Source of the DNA: Methanomicrobia archaeon
GTDB lineage: Archaea; Halobacteriota; Syntropharchaeia; Alkanophagales; Methanospirareceae
Direction: 5' to 3'
DNA length: 32,217 nt
Assembly (NCBI GenBank): GCA_016930255.1
Contig: JAFGHB010000015.1
Coordinates: 1-32,217 of the forward strand
Positions 2,468 to 31,330 of the stretch are shown in pieces (within the stretch, counting starts at the first letter, position 1; every line of letters begins with the position of its first letter). The translations under genes and the position numbers were made by a program. Under the pieces are notes generated by a model. It was not told the origin of the DNA and searched no databases. It saw only the letters and a program-made list of their open reading frames with translations.

Positions 2468-2764
2468 ATGCATGCAACATCGAGCAAAATGGGCGTGTTG
2501 GGTAAAGCCCTAAAAATACTGCCCGCAACGGAAGAGGATATTATTCTCACGGGAATCGTATCAAAGATTGCAGAGCGAATTACGGAACTCAAAAAAGCTG
2601 AGAAAATACTGATTGAAACCTACGTATCTCGTGAACGTTTAGAGCAGGAGATAAAGGAAAAAGGTGTTACTCCGGATGACCATACCCGCCACAATGATCT
2701 CTTAGAGTGGCGAGCGATACGCTATGAGTTAGAAGAACTTACAAACCTCTTGGAGAGTCTGTAG
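2468..2764 (+). CDS. Small helical protein, candidate antitoxin of a two-gene module
   Basis: The 98-residue product is not a family I recognise. It is charged and predicted almost wholly helical from about residue 20 (ITELKKAEKILIETYVSRER and the E/L-rich C-terminus), which suggests a coiled coil. It is followed by the next gene after only 2 nt (TAG GA ATG), so the two are surely cotranscribed and translationally coupled. A small acidic/helical gene directly upstream of a DUF6516/TumE-like toxin candidate fits an antitoxin, but that is inferred from arrangement alone. An in-frame ATG at 2489 (MGVLGKALK) is an alternative start. The pair lies between two copies of the surface-protein tail, so it is probably an inserted accessory module. 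Confidence 0.6.
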   Translation: MHATSSKMGVLGKALKILPATEEDIILTGIVSKIAERITELKKAEKILIETYVSRERLEQEIKEKGVTPDDHTRHNDLLEWRAIRYELEELTNLLESL

Positions 2765-2766
2765 GA

Positions 2767-3156
2767 ATGATCTGGCATCGGGGAGTTATCCAAAAGCTCA
2801 CTGCTTCTGGACTATTTTACGAGTGCTTCGTCATCGGTGCGAAAATCCGTGCTCCGATAAATGATACGCTTTTCCTCGACATTTACTACGATCCAACGAC
2901 AAAGAGCTATTCATACGGCCTGGTTGATTCAGAACTACCCTACAAGGGCGATAAAAGAATTTTGGGATGGGATGACTACCCACACGAGGGCATAAAAGAA
3001 ATGAAAGCCCTCAAAAGTTACCCACACCATTTTCAGTTCCGCAAAAACGAGAAGTGGGTATTTGATGACTCTCCACTGCGTGGGGACATAATGAAGGATA
3101 TTGAGGTCGTTATAAAAGCGGTTTCTGAATATCTTCGGAGTTCTACCACAGTATAA
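2767..3156 (+). CDS. DUF6516/TumE-like protein, candidate toxin
   Basis: The 129-residue product has the layout I associate with the DUF6516/TumE toxin family. A beta hairpin (TLFLDIYYDPTTKSYSYGLV) is followed by R-I-x-G-W-D-x-x-P-H, a second P-H-H motif (SYPHHFQF) and a C-terminal helix after a D-I-x-K-D-I segment. The family's usual 'DNAPHH…PHHxH' pattern is only partly kept (GWDDYPHE, YPHHFQF), so the assignment is by motif resemblance, not certain homology. No membrane segment or signal peptide is present. It is coupled to the helical gene upstream (2 nt gap) and its stop is about 14 nt from the start of the repeated surface-protein tail. Expected role if correct: an intracellular toxin held in check by its upstream partner. 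Confidence 0.5.
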   Translation: MIWHRGVIQKLTASGLFYECFVIGAKIRAPINDTLFLDIYYDPTTKSYSYGLVDSELPYKGDKRILGWDDYPHEGIKEMKALKSYPHHFQFRKNEKWVFDDSPLRGDIMKDIEVVIKAVSEYLRSSTTV

Positions 3157-3170
3157 AAAACAGGCTCGTG

Positions 3171-3384
3171 TCCGCAGATCCATCATACTAGAACGCTACT
3201 GACCGAAAACGGCTGGATGAACTGTACTTCTTTCGTAGATGTCAACGGTAAGCGTTCTGAGGACTGTATTCCTGCTATCAAGCTTTGGTCTGACGGAACA
3301 AGTTCTTTAATCAACGTTTCTTACCAAGAAAAGTTGTTGGATTCAGGCCATCAGGCTGTGGTCATAAAAAAGTTTCTCTGGTAA
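3171..3384 (+). pseudogene. Second, orphaned copy of a surface-protein C-terminal tail
   Basis: A frame with no start codon or binding site reads IHHTRTLLTENGWMNCTSF, then VDVNGKRSEDCIPAIKLWSD, and runs to a TAA at 3382-3384. The first 79 nt nearly equal 2314-2392; afterwards the DNA differs but the protein is still homologous (IPAIKL). The copy begins about 14 nt after the candidate toxin gene stops. It is therefore the 3' end of a second surface-protein gene, or of the same one before the gene pair was inserted. It then extends about 30 codons beyond the usual IPAIKL end, probably through loss of the original stop. Confidence 0.75.
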
Positions 3385-3410
3385 AGCTTTCTTTACAAAG
3401 AAAGGTTTAT

Positions 3411-3437
3411 GGGATACCAGCGATTAAATTGGAGTGA
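3411..3437 (+). pseudogene. Possible third relic of an IPAIKL tail
   Basis: The nine codons at 3411-3437 read GIPAIKLE followed by TGA, the same terminal motif as the two larger tail copies upstream, in a different frame from the second copy. With so few residues chance cannot be excluded. Its position directly after the other copies makes a third decayed tail plausible. The rest of 3385-3587 shows only short open frames and nothing I recognise; a ctttcttt/aaagaaag inverted repeat lies at about 3388-3406. Confidence 0.3.
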
Positions 3438-3587
3438 AATGGCTTTATCCCGATTTAAAACTCTCTCCTGGAGAATTCCAAAATGTAGCAGAAGAAATGG
3501 AAGGAAGAAGTGCCAGTGGGTAGCTGGACAGAAACCACGTGCGAGTCTGAAATGGTATAGAATTTTTTTATAGTTTGAAAAGCATAG

Positions 3588-3600
3588 CGTACTTAAATAC
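3588..3600 (+). promoter_or_regulatory. Candidate archaeal TATA box of the tubulin-like operon
   Basis: The stretch cgtacttaaatac holds a TATA-like box (cttaaata) about 65 nt before the first ATG of the operon, which leaves room for a leader of about 40 nt with the ribosome binding site gaggt at 3650-3654. Called by eye; no other candidate of similar quality lies closer to the gene. Confidence 0.4.
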
Positions 3601-3661
3601 TCCGAAACCTAAATAACTACTAGTATCGATATAGTGAAGTAAAGGGAAAGAGGTAGTGGAT

Positions 3662-4102
3662 ATGGAACCCACAAGTATAGGAATTCTGATTGTTGCTCTA
3701 GTGCTCATCGTAGAGGTCGTCGTGATGCTGTTGAAGCTCAAGGTGGACAAGATGCTGCTTCTCATGCCGCTCATCGGCGTTATATTCGCGGTCATCTCCT
3801 TTGCGTTGAACGAATACCGGGATAAGGTCCTTTCTTCGTTATCAGGCACGACGCAGTCTATCGTGATCTATGGTCTACTGGCGGTCGGCATCATCTTCGG
3901 CGTATTCGCTGTTGCAGTATGGTTCAAAGGCGAGAAGGAAGCGAGAAAGCTCACCTCAGCGGCAAAGAGCATAGATAGCGCGATTGCGGGGATTGAAAGC
4001 GACATACAGGGCAGCGGGATGGATATCGAGCATTTCGAGGAGGAGATGGGCTCGATCAAAGCGAAAGTAGAAGATTACGAAATGAAAGAGAAGGGGGTAT
4101 GA
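3662..4102 (+). CDS. Three-helix membrane protein of the tubulin-like operon
   Basis: A 146-residue membrane protein. I chose the ATG at 3662 because the binding site gaggt (3650-3654) is 7 nt upstream; the GTG at 3656 would be too close. Three hydrophobic helices are visible (about residues 5-24, 31-50 and 66-87). The loop KLKVDK after the first and the charged stretch GEKEARK after the third are positive, so the N-terminus is likely outside and the roughly 55-residue helical tail (with an acidic FEEEMGSIKAKVEDYE end) inside. The large tubulin-like gene begins 17 nt downstream, and the third gene is also membrane-bound with a cytoplasmic helical tail. I infer that this protein helps tether the GTPase to the membrane. 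I do not recognise its family. Confidence 0.85.
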   Translation: MEPTSIGILIVALVLIVEVVVMLLKLKVDKMLLLMPLIGVIFAVISFALNEYRDKVLSSLSGTTQSIVIYGLLAVGIIFGVFAVAVWFKGEKEARKLTSAAKSIDSAIAGIESDIQGSGMDIEHFEEEMGSIKAKVEDYEMKEKGV

Positions 4103-4119
4103 GCGGGGATAGATAGAAG

Positions 4120-6819
4120 ATGGAGAAGGGAGAAGATACGGTAAATAGGATTGTCATCGGAATCGGCGGGCAGGGGAGCACCGTCGTTAATAATATCCTG
4201 CGCATGCTGAAGTCCAAGACAGGGAAATTACCGAAGAATGAGGAGTTTTTGATTATCGATACCGACCAGGCATCCGCAAGTGCGTGCACCGAGGTAGAAG
4301 AGCGGAAGAAGATCGTTCTCAATCGCCCGGATACGATTTTGATGAAGAACGCCAACAGATGGCTTCCGGATCCGTATCTGTCGGCTGCAGGTGCCGGGTG
4401 CGGACAGCATCGGATCTACGGGCGGGCGATGTATAATGTGCATCGCGAGCGGATATTCAGTGCGATCGGTACGGCCGCATCGGAATTAAGAAACAGAACG
4501 GGCGGTAAGGACTTTTTTATAGTAATGGTGTGCGCATTCGGTGGCGGCACAGGATCGAGCATGCTGCTCGACGTCGCAATAGACATTAGGGATTGGATCT
4601 CGAAACAGTTCGGGTCCGAGCCGGTGATCTTTGGCATTGGGATTCTGCCGTCGAGCAAGGAGTCCGCGCTTCCAACCGCGAATGCCCTGGGTACTATGAA
4701 AGAGCTTCATTTCCTCATGTCACATACCGAGGACATCGTCATCGATGACAAGAACTATTCCAATCCGTTCAAACTGTTCTTCCTTTTAGGACGGGACCTT
4801 CAGGGGCAGAACCGGGATGAGGAATTGGAACGGGCGATACCACGGTTCCTTCTCGACCTTGGGTTCCTCCCGGGCGGCTCGGTGGAGACAAAGGGCAAGT
4901 GGCTCGACCTCAACGACCTCCAGAACAGAGCACGAGGCTACGAAAACCGGTTTGACTCGCTGGGTTACTACGAGTGTGTTTTCCCCTCAGAGAAGTTATT
5001 CTTGCTTTATGACGTCGAGGATGACATCCCTGGGGTCAGGCAACGATTAGTAGAGATAGAGGCGAAGATAGCGGATATACGAGGAAAAATAGAGACCGAA
5101 CGGGGCGAACTGGAGCGATTTGAGGGGCGAATTCGGGAGGTTCAGCGCGAGGTGGATAGTTACGAATCGGCGTCTGGGTTGTTCGCGCATCGGAGTACAG
5201 GTGCGATGGCGGATGCCAAGGCGAAGCTGGATAGAGCGAGGAAGAAGTTATCTGGCTTGAAAGAGGAGGTCTTCGACCTTGAGATCCGGGCGAGCGATGC
5301 AGAAGAGGAGAAGCGACTTACAGAGCGGAATTTAGAACGGCTTGAGGCGCTCAAGAACAAGCTGCTCCGGGACGTAACCTCGCCGCTGAATACGCGGAGT
5401 TATCATCAGATCGAGCTGTCGGACGAGGAGATCCGGAGCTTAAAGAAGAGCCGAGAAGACCTGAAGAATCTCTCGTTCTTCGCGATTATGAAGAAACTCG
5501 GCCGCGAGGAGGAGTTCTTCAGGTGGACGCACTCGCCGATTAACGAGGGCGATGTCATATTCAATCCGATGGTGAACTACCGGCATTCCATCGAGAATAC
5601 CCTGGCATCGAAGTATATCGACATTCTTCACGATTACGGATTCCTCATGCTGGATACGCTGGGGAACGTGGTGAACGAGGAGGAGAAGTTTGGGCATTTC
5701 ATCGCGGTATTGAGCACACGGGCGGACAATTTTGATGATGCGCGGCTCGGCGGCGGCGCGTTTAAGACCATGGTGACGGAACGCTTTGCAAAGGATGCAG
5801 ACGTGCTGAAATTGGATACGCCCGCGCGTTCACACAGCTTTGCCATCTATACGCTTATGATCGGGCTGCAACCGTGGGCGCCGGGACCCGGGCTTCCGCC
5901 ACGGCTGCGAGAGCTCGAATGGCTCGAGAAAGCGTATAAAGAAAGTGATTTCATCAGGTTGCAACGGCATCATTCGCTCTTTTACGGGACCCCGAAACCG
6001 TTCTCTCTCATTTCCGGAATACCTTACACGCCGGGTGCAGACGAGAAGAATAGAGATATGGTGACGACGTACTGGAAGAATTACGAGGTGCTGGAGAAGG
6101 ATGCGATATGGAATAACGTCCCGATCGTGCTCGCACAGTGCCTGAAGATGTTCGACGATTTACTTACCGGCTTGAATTTGGCGGAGGACATCAAGAACCT
6201 GCGCATTCCGGATCCGGCGAGCTACTCGATCGCGAATCTTACGATGCTCGTGCACGGCCTTGAGAATGCGAGTAAGAGCATGGAGAACGTGAAGAGCTGG
6301 ACAAAAGAGGCAGAACGCGGGTTTATAGTTCTGAGAAACGAGCTTAATGAATTGATAGCCAAATTACGCGGTATGGAGACGGGCGCGCCTCCGGGAGCTA
6401 AGGCTGGGCGAATGGTACGCATGATCGAAGACTCATCACGGAACATGGAGATTTTAATCGACCGGATTGAAGATCTCTCGAACCGGTTCAGTGACGACAT
6501 AAAAGCGGTCATTGACCGAGCGATGGAGTTCCTCGGGGCGATACCTTCTGAAGATACTTCCTCGAGCGTCATACGACATATGACCAAGGCGGAAGCGGAG
6601 ATTTCGAGGATCCGGGAGGATAGTATGAAAGCAGCAAAGGGGATAAAAGATATGGGCGGGCCGCTCGCAATGATGTTATCCGCGTTAAAAGAGCTGAAAA
6701 AGATAACCGAGTCGGGGGAACCGGGAGCGGACGTCGAAATAGGGGAAGAGAAGCGGGAGAAGCCGAAGAGCGTCGAGCTGCCCGATCTCTCACTCGATAT
6801 ACGGAGGGATGAAGAATGA
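4120..6819 (+). CDS. Large tubulin-like GTPase with coiled coil (Tubulin_2 type)
   Basis: An 899-residue cytoplasmic protein. The N-terminal third is a tubulin/FtsZ-type nucleotide-binding fold: a glycine-rich first loop VIGIGGQGS (residues 12-20), IDTDQ at 46-50, a GAGCGQHRIYGRAM segment, and the tubulin signature GGGTGSS at 141-147, followed by a lDva-x-x-x-R helix and GILPSSKES/NALGTMKEL. This order matches the Tubulin_2 family ('tubulin-like') better than FtsZ, CetZ or TubZ, all of which are much shorter. A long coiled coil occupies about residues 300-417, and the C-terminal part (about 690-880) is helical and charged. No membrane segment is seen. Upstream (17 nt) and downstream (4-nt ATGA overlap) genes code membrane proteins with cytoplasmic helices. 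Inferred role: a GTP-dependent polymer or scaffold docked at the membrane; what it moves or shapes is unknown. Confidence 0.85.
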   Translation: MEKGEDTVNRIVIGIGGQGSTVVNNILRMLKSKTGKLPKNEEFLIIDTDQASASACTEVEERKKIVLNRPDTILMKNANRWLPDPYLSAAGAGCGQHRIYGRAMYNVHRERIFSAIGTAASELRNRTGGKDFFIVMVCAFGGGTGSSMLLDVAIDIRDWISKQFGSEPVIFGIGILPSSKESALPTANALGTMKELHFLMSHTEDIVIDDKNYSNPFKLFFLLGRDLQGQNRDEELERAIPRFLLDLGFLPGGSVETKGKWLDLNDLQNRARGYENRFDSLGYYECVFPSEKLFLLYDVEDDIPGVRQRLVEIEAKIADIRGKIETERGELERFEGRIREVQREVDSYESASGLFAHRSTGAMADAKAKLDRARKKLSGLKEEVFDLEIRASDAEEEKRLTERNLERLEALKNKLLRDVTSPLNTRSYHQIELSDEEIRSLKKSREDLKNLSFFAIMKKLGREEEFFRWTHSPINEGDVIFNPMVNYRHSIENTLASKYIDILHDYGFLMLDTLGNVVNEEEKFGHFIAVLSTRADNFDDARLGGGAFKTMVTERFAKDADVLKLDTPARSHSFAIYTLMIGLQPWAPGPGLPPRLRELEWLEKAYKESDFIRLQRHHSLFYGTPKPFSLISGIPYTPGADEKNRDMVTTYWKNYEVLEKDAIWNNVPIVLAQCLKMFDDLLTGLNLAEDIKNLRIPDPASYSIANLTMLVHGLENASKSMENVKSWTKEAERGFIVLRNELNELIAKLRGMETGAPPGAKAGRMVRMIEDSSRNMEILIDRIEDLSNRFSDDIKAVIDRAMEFLGAIPSEDTSSSVIRHMTKAEAEISRIREDSMKAAKGIKDMGGPLAMMLSALKELKKITESGEPGADVEIGEEKREKPKSVELPDLSLDIRRDEE

Positions 6820-7874
6820 GCAAGAACGGATTAGCGGTCACAGCCCTCGCCGTTTTGGCATGCACATTTCTGTTTTTATCGCTTGGCATCGGACTCGCCG
6901 CAGCGCAGCAGGATGTGCTGAAGCTGGACGAAGACACGTCATACGTCCTCAATCTGGAGACGGGAAGTAAACAGACCTACGTTGGGTTTTTGGATAGCAA
7001 GCAATTTGAAGGCGACCGGCTGGAATTCAACATCTACGTGGGCAAGACGGGGAACCCCATACTCGATGATTATGTCCTGGAATTGCGGACGAACCTCGAT
7101 AACCCGGAGTGGAAGGTTGGTGATGACATTTATCATGCGGCAAACGTACTCGTGTGGAAGGGCGCGGAGGCGCATGCAGCCCTTGTCCCGAAGATCGTCT
7201 TATCCGGCGACGTGCCAAAGCCGATAAAGAAGATCAAAGAACCGGGGTTCGAAGTATACGACATCTACGGCATTGGTGAGGGCGAAGTGTACGTCGAACT
7301 CACCGTAGGCACGACGAGCGACGGGTCGACCTTATCGACGATAATACAGAAGCTGGAGCCGTCGATGACCTTCTTGTCAACGACGGAAGACATTCAGGAT
7401 GCCCAGAGCGAAATAGAGCAGAACTTGGAGGAAGCACAGGGTAAGATCGGCGAAACGGATTTGGAAGAGGACATCCGAAGACTGGCAGAGGAAGGGCATC
7501 CGGGCTGGGCATCACTACTATCAGCGCATTACAACGAGCTTTCAGTCGCCGCGGAGCCGCCACCAATCACGCTTTACGTCATCCTTTCGGTGCTCGTGGG
7601 CTTGATCTTGGGCTCGGCGTTCGTCTATGTCTACGTTTCGCGCGGCGGCGGTAAAGGCGTGGACGTGAGCCAGATCTCCGCGGAGTTGAACGATACATCC
7701 GGGCGATTGGAGGAGAAATCGAGTTCCATCAATGCGATCTCAACGAAGTTTGCGCGGAGTGAAGACGATGAGAAGCGGAGCGTTGCACGCGATCTGATCA
7801 AGATACGGGCGGGTCTGAACGAGATCTCAAACGAGATACGAACGATTGCCGATAAGATCAGGGGTCCACGGTAG
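6816..7874 (+). CDS. Single-pass membrane protein with extracellular beta domain and cytoplasmic coiled coil
   Basis: A 352-residue protein whose ATG overlaps the stop of the tubulin-like gene (ATGA) and has a strong site ggaggg just upstream. Residues 1-30 form a signal peptide (hydrophobic core, AAA cleavage region). About 31-190 is an extracellular beta-rich domain with no cysteine pairs and no motif I recognise; 195-240 is helical. A transmembrane helix lies at about 251-273 (LYVILSVLVGLILGSAFVYV), followed by a glycine-rich basic stop (SRGGGKG) and a 65-residue cytoplasmic coiled coil (IRAGLNEISNEIRTIADKIR). This is a receptor- or anchor-like layout. Within the operon it would link the outside or S-layer to the tubulin-like GTPase. 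The function is inferred from arrangement only. Confidence 0.85.
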   Translation: MSKNGLAVTALAVLACTFLFLSLGIGLAAAQQDVLKLDEDTSYVLNLETGSKQTYVGFLDSKQFEGDRLEFNIYVGKTGNPILDDYVLELRTNLDNPEWKVGDDIYHAANVLVWKGAEAHAALVPKIVLSGDVPKPIKKIKEPGFEVYDIYGIGEGEVYVELTVGTTSDGSTLSTIIQKLEPSMTFLSTTEDIQDAQSEIEQNLEEAQGKIGETDLEEDIRRLAEEGHPGWASLLSAHYNELSVAAEPPPITLYVILSVLVGLILGSAFVYVYVSRGGGKGVDVSQISAELNDTSGRLEEKSSSINAISTKFARSEDDEKRSVARDLIKIRAGLNEISNEIRTIADKIRGPR

Positions 7875-30320: not shown

Positions 30321-30396
30321 ATCGGGCCATATCTTTAATGTCAGAGCGAGAAATAGATTATTCATGCATGATGCATGATGAGTGAGAGGGGGAAAA

Positions 30397-30777
30397 ATGG
30401 GATTAAAAGAAGGTTTCGAGAAGCTATTTGTGAAAAAAGAGGGAATACGTGACGAGGATGATTATCAGGACTTGGACTTAGAGGAGTACGAAGAGGAGCT
30501 CAGGGAAGAAGAAGGCGTACGGATGTACATAAAGCTCGCGGAATTGACAGGGTTATACGACATTCCCGATTTGAAGAAGGAGATCTACGGTGGTAATATC
30601 TTAATTCTGGACATATCCCTGGCGAAGCAGGACAAGGTGCTGGTAGAGAAGGCGATAAAAGACTTGAAGATGGCGGCATTCGATGTGGGCGGAGACATCG
30701 CGGGCATCTCGGATGACCAGGTGATTGTAGCGCCATTAGGCATTAAGATCGAACGGAAGAAGCTGACCAAGAAGTAG
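30397..30777 (+). CDS. sepF: Archaeal cell-division protein SepF
   Basis: About 126 residues. The ATG at 30397 gives MGLKEGFEKLFVKKEG, the expected amphipathic membrane-binding helix, and has gagaggggg 4-5 nt upstream; the frame's GTG at 30382 would add five useless residues. A variable acidic linker is followed by the SepF core: VRMYIKLAELTGLYDIPDLK, then IYGGNILILDISLAKQDKVL and GGDIAGISDDQVIVAPLGIK. In archaea SepF tethers FtsZ to the membrane at mid-cell. Its presence implies a normal FtsZ-SepF divisome in this organism, separate from the tubulin-like protein at 4120. A ZPR1 gene follows about 55 nt later. Confidence 0.93.
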   Translation: MGLKEGFEKLFVKKEGIRDEDDYQDLDLEEYEEELREEEGVRMYIKLAELTGLYDIPDLKKEIYGGNILILDISLAKQDKVLVEKAIKDLKMAAFDVGGDIAGISDDQVIVAPLGIKIERKKLTKK

Positions 30778-30832
30778 CGTAGCAGCCTCCTTTCTTTCGG
30801 GCTGCTGTGCTGTGCAGGGGAGTTACCGTGCC

Positions 30833-31330
30833 GTGAAAGAGACTTGTCCACTCTGTGGGGCAGAAAGCGAATTACAGGTTGTACCCTATGACATTCCCTT
30901 CTTCGGCGAAGTGATGATTTTTACCGTGGTTTGCCCCTCGTGTGGCTATCACGCTACCGACGTACTGACGCTCGCAGAAGAGCAGAAGAAACGATGCGAG
31001 CTGGTGGTCTCGTCGATAGAGGATGTCAACGCAATCGTCGTGCGGTCTTCGTCAGGAACCATTGAGATCCCGGAGTTGGGCGTAAGCGTGGAGCCGAAGC
31101 GCGGGGAAGCTTTTATATCTACGGTCGAGGGCGTGCTGAAGCGTGTGGAGAACGTGGTGATGATGCTGGCCAGAGATGGCGCGAGCAAGAAGCGTATAGA
31201 TGCGGTACTGAAGCAGATAGATGAGATAAAGTTAGGTAAAGCAAGTATGACGTTAATAATTGAAGATCCTACGGGTAACAGCGCGATAATTCCCAATAAA
31301 CTTTTCTATAAAAAAGAAGAGGGTACTTAA
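30833..31330 (+). CDS. ZPR1 zinc-finger domain protein
   Basis: About 165 residues. The GTG at 30833 is preferred because aggggag lies 10 nt upstream; the frame could begin at a GTG at 30812. The zinc finger CPLCGAES with CPSCGYH about 30 residues later is followed by the ZPR1 beta domain (SSSGTIEIPELGVSVEPKRG, then FISTVEGVLKRVE) and an end with MTLIIEDPTGNSAIIP, all typical of archaeal ZPR1 proteins, which have one finger-plus-domain unit where eukaryotes have two. Eukaryotic ZPR1 acts in translation-factor folding; the archaeal role is not established. It lies between sepF and metK and is probably cotranscribed with sepF. Confidence 0.9.
   Translation: MKETCPLCGAESELQVVPYDIPFFGEVMIFTVVCPSCGYHATDVLTLAEEQKKRCELVVSSIEDVNAIVVRSSSGTIEIPELGVSVEPKRGEAFISTVEGVLKRVENVVMMLARDGASKKRIDAVLKQIDEIKLGKASMTLIIEDPTGNSAIIPNKLFYKKEEGT

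Follow-up and report, generated by a model that had tools for sequence, protein, structure and literature searches.

A tubulin-superfamily protein of the FtsZl1/Tubulin_2 family in a conserved seven-gene locus of ANME-1 and Candidatus Syntrophoarchaeum

Three genes at the core of a seven-gene locus

We analyzed a 32,217-nucleotide (nt) stretch of archaeal DNA (contig JAFGHB010000015.1), referred to here as the window, which carries three tightly packed genes, A, T and C, encoding, respectively, a small membrane protein, a predicted tubulin-superfamily GTPase and an exported protein with a single membrane pass (Table 1; positions are those of the whole window, + strand). Open reading frame (ORF) analysis reproduced the gene lengths of an initial annotation of this DNA, as well as the 17-nt gap between A and T and the 4-nt overlap of T with C. 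However, the start quoted there, position 3588, lies upstream of any gene, and A most likely begins with the ATG at 3662, which agrees with most orthologues and has the sequence GAGG (3650-3653) just 5' of it; an alternative GTG at 3656 would give a protein of 148 amino acids (aa).

Hydropathy, on which the membrane topology of the system's proteins is predicted, bore out the earlier description of A as a three-helix membrane protein and of C as an exported single-pass protein with a cytoplasmic tail. In A, the three hydrophobic segments and the charge pattern predict an N-out/C-in protein with a cytoplasmic helical tail of ~57 residues. C has an N-terminal signal peptide, an ectodomain extending to approximately residue 250, a transmembrane (TM) segment at residues 251-269 and a charged, helical cytoplasmic tail. 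Orthologues of A (38-84% identity) always lie immediately 5' of T where the contig extends that far, and those of C (49-84% identity) lie immediately 3' of T, with the 4-nt overlap in most loci. A matched no Pfam family above its cut-off and C matched no Pfam or NCBIfam family; these partners of T are previously undescribed.

Relatives of T with 64-88% identity were found in 30 named genomes, which are labelled as anaerobic methanotrophic archaea group 1 (ANME-1)/Methanophagales, some labels being broader or doubtful, apart from one Candidatus Syntrophoarchaeum. Within the class, T is present in 35 of 58 genomes, in one of the 35 only by a 43-residue end at low significance. In a search across 393 genomes from the phylum, relatives of full length were confined to the same two families of this class; the matches in six genomes from outside these families were weak and fell on other Tubulin_2 proteins. 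Viral contigs held no relatives of T, so a phage origin is unsupported. Wherever a homologous locus is not truncated by the end of its contig, the order A-T-C is unbroken; homologues of T lacking the membrane genes were sought and not seen, A preceding and C following T in all loci with enough sequence. The presence of T in 30 named genomes and the conserved gene order show that the locus is not a chance set of ORFs. Two irregular copies were noted. The T gene of one ANME-1 genome (G031; L070, 3992-6466) is split by an in-frame stop into parts of 368 and 441 aa, reflecting either gene decay or an assembly error. An in-frame TGA appeared in the T hits of the Syntrophoarchaeum family, but recoding was rejected, as the predicted gene stops at its own stop codon after 863 codons and overlaps C by 4 nt.

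Comparison of gene neighborhoods in related archaea confirmed A-T-C as a conserved unit and revealed a larger one. In most loci of ANME-1 and Candidatus Syntrophoarchaeum, A is preceded by two further genes, F3 and F4, and F5 and F6 are divergent from these. This arrangement, F6-F5 / F4-F3-A-T-C, was found in 11 contigs, including that of Syntrophoarchaeum (L074), two of them being cut at the contig end (L055 and L079). F4 and F3 mostly overlap by 20 nt, and the 4-nt overlap of T with C recurs across loci. In the window genome, F3-F6 are located on a different contig (C22, L039), and the window is one of nine loci having other genes 5' of A-T-C (genomes G000, G012, G027, G029, G030, G031, G042, G047 and G048). 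These split loci span five genera, and four of the genera hold an intact or nearly intact locus as well, which suggests that the locus broke at least five times independently. F4 and F3 were nevertheless kept elsewhere in all nine of the genomes with a split locus, and their survival in one split genome after another gives independent support to an association with T. A-T-C thus forms the center of a unit of seven genes that includes F3-F6, and the window shows only a part of the locus, broken by rearrangement. The initial annotation had recognized a three-gene unit, which stands; its extent does not, since a degenerate tubulin-fold protein (F4) and three envelope proteins encoded on another contig also belong to it.

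Co-occurrence across the 58 genomes of the class agrees with this view. For T against F4 and T against F3, 33 genomes have both, 19 have neither, and 2 and 4 are discordant (Fisher p=1.6e-9, not a strict probability since the genomes share kinship). T and F4 agree in 52 of the 58, several of the six exceptions being drafts in which the genes lie at the ends of contigs. The 17 genomes with a completeness of 90% or more are all consistent: 15 have T, C, F3 and F4, and two have none of them.

The region 5' of A in the window (3160-3590) contains no intact ORF. Beyond it, at 2468-3156, lie a homologue of the TumE toxin (PF20126, E 1.2e-7) and, just 5' of this, a 98-aa gene, likely forming a toxin-antitoxin pair that adjoins the breakpoint of the ancestral locus.

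The tubulin-like proteins T and F4 and their envelope partners

A search of Pfam placed T above the cut-off for Tubulin_2 (PF13809, E 1.8e-24, 87.1 bits, cut-off 27) and below that for Tubulin/FtsZ (PF00091, 28.4 bits, cut-off 33), and found no match to the FtsZ C-terminal domain. Furthermore, a profile built from 27 T sequences aligned, along residues 11-316, with seven further Tubulin_2 proteins of archaea (hhalign Prob 98.8, E 7.5e-17). The GIGGQGS and GGGTGSS motifs, from which the tubulin fold was originally proposed, are both present in T; the second is identical in all full-length homologues (Table 1) and matches the FtsZl1 pattern GGGTG(S/T)G, with the final G replaced by S. The coiled coil of about 120 residues noted earlier corresponds to a helical hairpin in an AlphaFold2 model, in which both helices have a predicted local distance difference test (pLDDT) score of mostly 80-89; weak matches to SMC/Rad50 coiled coils fall in this region. 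PADLOC and PHROGs matches were likewise confined to the coiled coil, so a defence role for T is not supported. C-terminal helices were modelled at residues 667-693, 704-750, 759-806, 815-844 and 846-864 (pLDDT mostly 77-91). An N-terminal FtsZ-like GTPase domain, an extended coiled coil and a helical C-terminal domain, in this order, are what define FtsZl1 according to Makarova & Koonin, and on this basis we placed T in that family. As judged from its sequence, T is a tubulin-superfamily GTPase distinct from FtsZ and a member of the published FtsZl1/Tubulin_2 family.

The model of T, built from an alignment of 27 sequences with identities to T of 64% or more, had a mean pLDDT of 57.9 and was poor outside the helical parts; when it was used to search the PDB for similar folds, helical bundles were all that came up, a result without meaning. 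No PDB sequence relative of T was detected by phmmer, and a profile search gave coiled-coil or helical matches only. Two further short segments of T are conserved (Table 1). One, DNFDDAR, might at a guess be the counterpart of the catalytic T7 loop, in a part where the structure model is not confident. The other, ELPDLSL, which follows an acidic linker, is a possible docking peptide; its core, [LM]P[DE]LS, is absent from the Syntrophoarchaeum T. FtsZ has a conserved C-terminal peptide after a linker, and the end of T resembles that layout, as a resemblance only.

Table 1. Positions of the core genes and of conserved or predicted elements of T in the window
Feature	Position	Strand	Basis
A, small membrane protein with three TM segments, 146 aa	3662..4102	+	ORF, hydropathy, charge pattern, orthologues
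T, predicted Tubulin_2/FtsZl1 GTPase, 899 aa	4120..6819	+	ORF, PF13809 match
T1 nucleotide-binding loop IGIGGQGS, T residues 13-20	4156..4179	+	In 27/27 full-length homologues, ending in S or G
T4 signature loop GGGTGSS, T residues 141-147	4540..4560	+	Identical in 27/27 full-length homologues
Coiled-coil hairpin, T residues ~290-420	4987..5379	+	AlphaFold2 helices 290-350 and 360-420
Conserved DNFDDAR, T residues 536-542	5725..5745	+	26/27 homologues including Syntrophoarchaeum; A replaced by G in three
Helical C-terminal domain, T residues ~667-864	6118..6711	+	AlphaFold2 model helices
ELPDLSL peptide after acidic linker, T residues 886-892	6775..6795	+	[LM]P[DE]LS in 26/26 ANME-1 sequences
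C, exported single-pass protein, 352 aa	6816..7874	+	ORF, hydropathy, orthologues

A second tubulin-type protein is encoded by F4, all 15 members of which match PF00091 (best 2.7e-9), with a match to FtsZ sequences of the PDB at 2.5e-6. A model built from the copy in a genome of the same genus as the window genome (L054) had a pLDDT of 80.5 and a predicted template modelling score of 0.83, and it matched CetZ1, CetZ2 and FtsZ along its length (Foldseek E 8e-16, TM 0.73). The T1 loop of F4 is largely retained (GxGNAGG), but its T4 loop is not of the GGGTGSG type, reading SGLxDSxIT or similar in most ANME-1 and showing a three-residue gap in the alignment to CetZ2 and FtsZ. F4 thus shares with CetZ (Haloferax volcanii CetZ1 and CetZ2, PDB 4b46 and 4b45) a fold over its full length and a GxGxAGG-type T1 loop, and differs from it in lacking a glycine-rich T4 loop, in being shorter before that loop, in its tie to a membrane operon and in an identity of only ~17%. 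The model and the alignment point to a CetZ-like pseudo-tubulin with an eroded nucleotide site.

The remaining three proteins are predicted to belong to the envelope. F3 (~425 aa) carries two TM segments near its N-terminus, of which only one is scored in Syntrophoarchaeum, followed by a long cytoplasmic region that seems to be mostly helical. By hydropathy, F5 (~330 aa) and F6 (~820 aa) are exported single-pass proteins, and F6 contains immunoglobulin (Ig)-like repeats with NPCBM_assoc, HYDIN and choice-of-anchor-D matches. The cytoplasmic C-termini of F5 and F6 are alike, e.g. DTRLGEELI and YEREVGDIIV (L039, 4413-7815, and relatives), which suggests that they may be docking peptides for a common cytoplasmic binding site.

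Relation to other FtsZl1 loci and to the division genes

The FtsZl1 family was defined in 2010 by Makarova & Koonin, who predicted that it acts with membrane proteins and outside division (PMC2875224); we found no assigned function for its members in the literature since then. The T locus resembles others of this family in being an operon with membrane proteins in a cell that also has FtsZ, and differs in that its set includes a second tubulin-fold protein, F4. No von Willebrand factor A (vWA) or P-loop GTPase partner was found, either in A, C and F3-F6 or in the genes closest to A-T-C in the window; such partners are frequent but not universal in FtsZl1, and this linkage was not used to exclude membership. 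The initial annotation took the Tubulin_2 fold as known and regarded the two membrane partners as an unfamiliar combination; the partner families are indeed undescribed, but T belongs to a published family for which work with membrane proteins had already been predicted. We found no paper joining ANME-1 with FtsZ and tubulin, or Syntrophoarchaeum with FtsZ, in a search that left aside subscription papers and preprints.

When A, C, F3, F5 and F6 were compared by profile with the proteins encoded around six other archaeal Tubulin_2 genes, and with those around the Tubulin_2 gene on contig C52 of the window genome, no match reached significance. Nevertheless, in five of these seven other loci (L086, L087, L088, L091 and L038) the gene immediately 5' of the tubulin gene encodes a protein with two hydrophobic segments, one N-terminal and the other closer to the C-terminus, that has no detectable homology to C. 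In L089, a longer protein of such layout lies ~220 nt from the tubulin gene, and L090 has none. An exported single-pass partner therefore looks common in archaeal FtsZl1, whereas, as far as searched, the sequence families A, C, F3, F5 and F6 appear specific to the ANME-1/Syntrophoarchaeum lineage, as does the inclusion of F4 in the set.

The C52 genes form a second Tubulin_2/FtsZl1 operon in the window genome (L038, 4505-11505), encoding a 241-aa exported single-pass protein, a 954-aa Tubulin_2 protein, a 178-aa protein with five TM segments, a 317-aa P-loop GTPase-like protein that weakly matches DO-GTPase2, and a 472-aa protein. Like A-T-C, it sets a Tubulin_2 gene beside genes for an exported single-pass and a multi-TM protein; unlike A-T-C, it includes a P-loop GTPase-like gene. 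Homology of C and A to its exported and five-TM proteins was rejected, as profile comparison detected none.

The initial annotation had further reasoned, from a SepF gene elsewhere in the window, that the cell already has FtsZ and that the T system is an additional one. Both points proved correct: SepF is encoded at 30382-30777 (PF04472, E 4.6e-10), more than 20 kb from A-T-C, and the genome has two FtsZ genes, FtsZ and SepF being encoded separately from T. T itself differs from FtsZ in lacking the FtsZ C-terminal domain by Pfam and in having TM partners instead. A gene for a ZPR1-type zinc-finger protein follows that of SepF, the two spanning 30382-31330.

Possible roles of the system

Starting from the observed gene content, conservation and co-occurrence, the family of T and the predicted fold of F4, we infer a physical complex, GTP-driven assembly or polymerization, attachment to an outer coat and a role in cell shape. 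The account that we favour, and to which we give an even chance, is that the seven genes make up a form of the FtsZl1 membrane systems specific to ANME-1 and Syntrophoarchaeum, a membrane-bound scaffold that couples tubulin-type proteins to the cell surface. T would be a cytoplasmic GTPase, tethered to the membrane through A and F3 and through the cytoplasmic tails of C, F5 and F6. F4, probably unable to bind GTP normally, would serve T as a regulatory, capping or scaffolding subunit, and C, F5 and the Ig-repeat protein F6 would carry the link outward, most likely to the surface layer (S-layer) or sheath of the cylindrical cells. Such a complex would organize or shape the envelope and have no role in cell division. 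ANME-1 cells are cylindrical, and ~40% of ANME-1 genomes encode sheath proteins (PMC9012536, PMC11576556); CetZ, the closest fold to F4, acts in cell shape and motility (PMC9723716), and these facts lead us to favour envelope organization or cell shape. In a more specific version, which we regard as doubtful, T and F4 would co-assemble, with F4 as the cap or seed, to give filaments or arrays on the membrane; C, F5 and F6 would couple these mechanically to the S-layer or sheath, yielding a trans-envelope, tubulin-type cytoskeleton that gives the ANME-1 cells their cylindrical shape.

Several observations weigh against the favoured account. Physical interaction, polymerization and GTPase activity of T are predicted properties, and the GTPase domain has a pLDDT mostly below 75, so that the model does not confirm the pocket or the T7 geometry. 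The link to cell shape is drawn from the appearance of ANME-1 cells, and no homology of C, F5 and F6 to known sheath or S-layer families was found in Pfam. Furthermore, two good-quality genomes of the ANME-1 family, G007 and G018, lack T, C, F3 and F4, and the system is thus not required for the ANME-1 lifestyle. The cell form of these two, set beside that of carriers of the system, would be an informative comparison.

The main rival is that T bends or pinches the membrane with its partners in remodelling or vesicle formation, the ectodomains sorting cargo or protecting the bud. The published prediction for FtsZl1 (PMC2875224) and the many membrane-spanning partners speak for this; however, the vWA and P-loop GTPase genes behind that prediction were not found here, and large Ig-repeat ectodomains with cytoplasmic helical regions fit a scaffold equally or better. 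We consider it on balance unlikely. An accessory division or septation apparatus beside FtsZ1, FtsZ2 and SepF, for example one splitting cells within a rigid sheath, would suit a member of the tubulin superfamily in sheathed, cylindrical cells, and SepF is encoded in the same window, though distantly. Nevertheless, with two ordinary FtsZ genes and SepF present, the whole system missing from some good ANME-1-family genomes and no division genes among the recurrent neighbours of A-T-C loci, we hold such a role to be improbable. We attach a similarly low probability to a surface sensor or adhesion complex, in which the ectodomains would attach to matrix or to partner bacteria, and T and F4 would make up a cytoplasmic receptor scaffold regulated by GTP rather than filaments. 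Three exported single-pass proteins with cytoplasmic tails, the similar tail peptides of F5 and F6 and the syntrophic aggregates in which ANME-1 live are compatible with it, but the Ig-like repeats are the sole adhesion- or signalling-type domain recognized.

Altogether, one FtsZl1 member now has a fixed, conserved set of partners that includes a tubulin with a seemingly eroded site and surface-exposed proteins. This suggests that in archaea a tubulin-type protein may be connected, through the membrane, with an outer coat. ANME-1 is a globally important, uncultured, methane-eating lineage, for which a defined protein set is now available for expression and testing.

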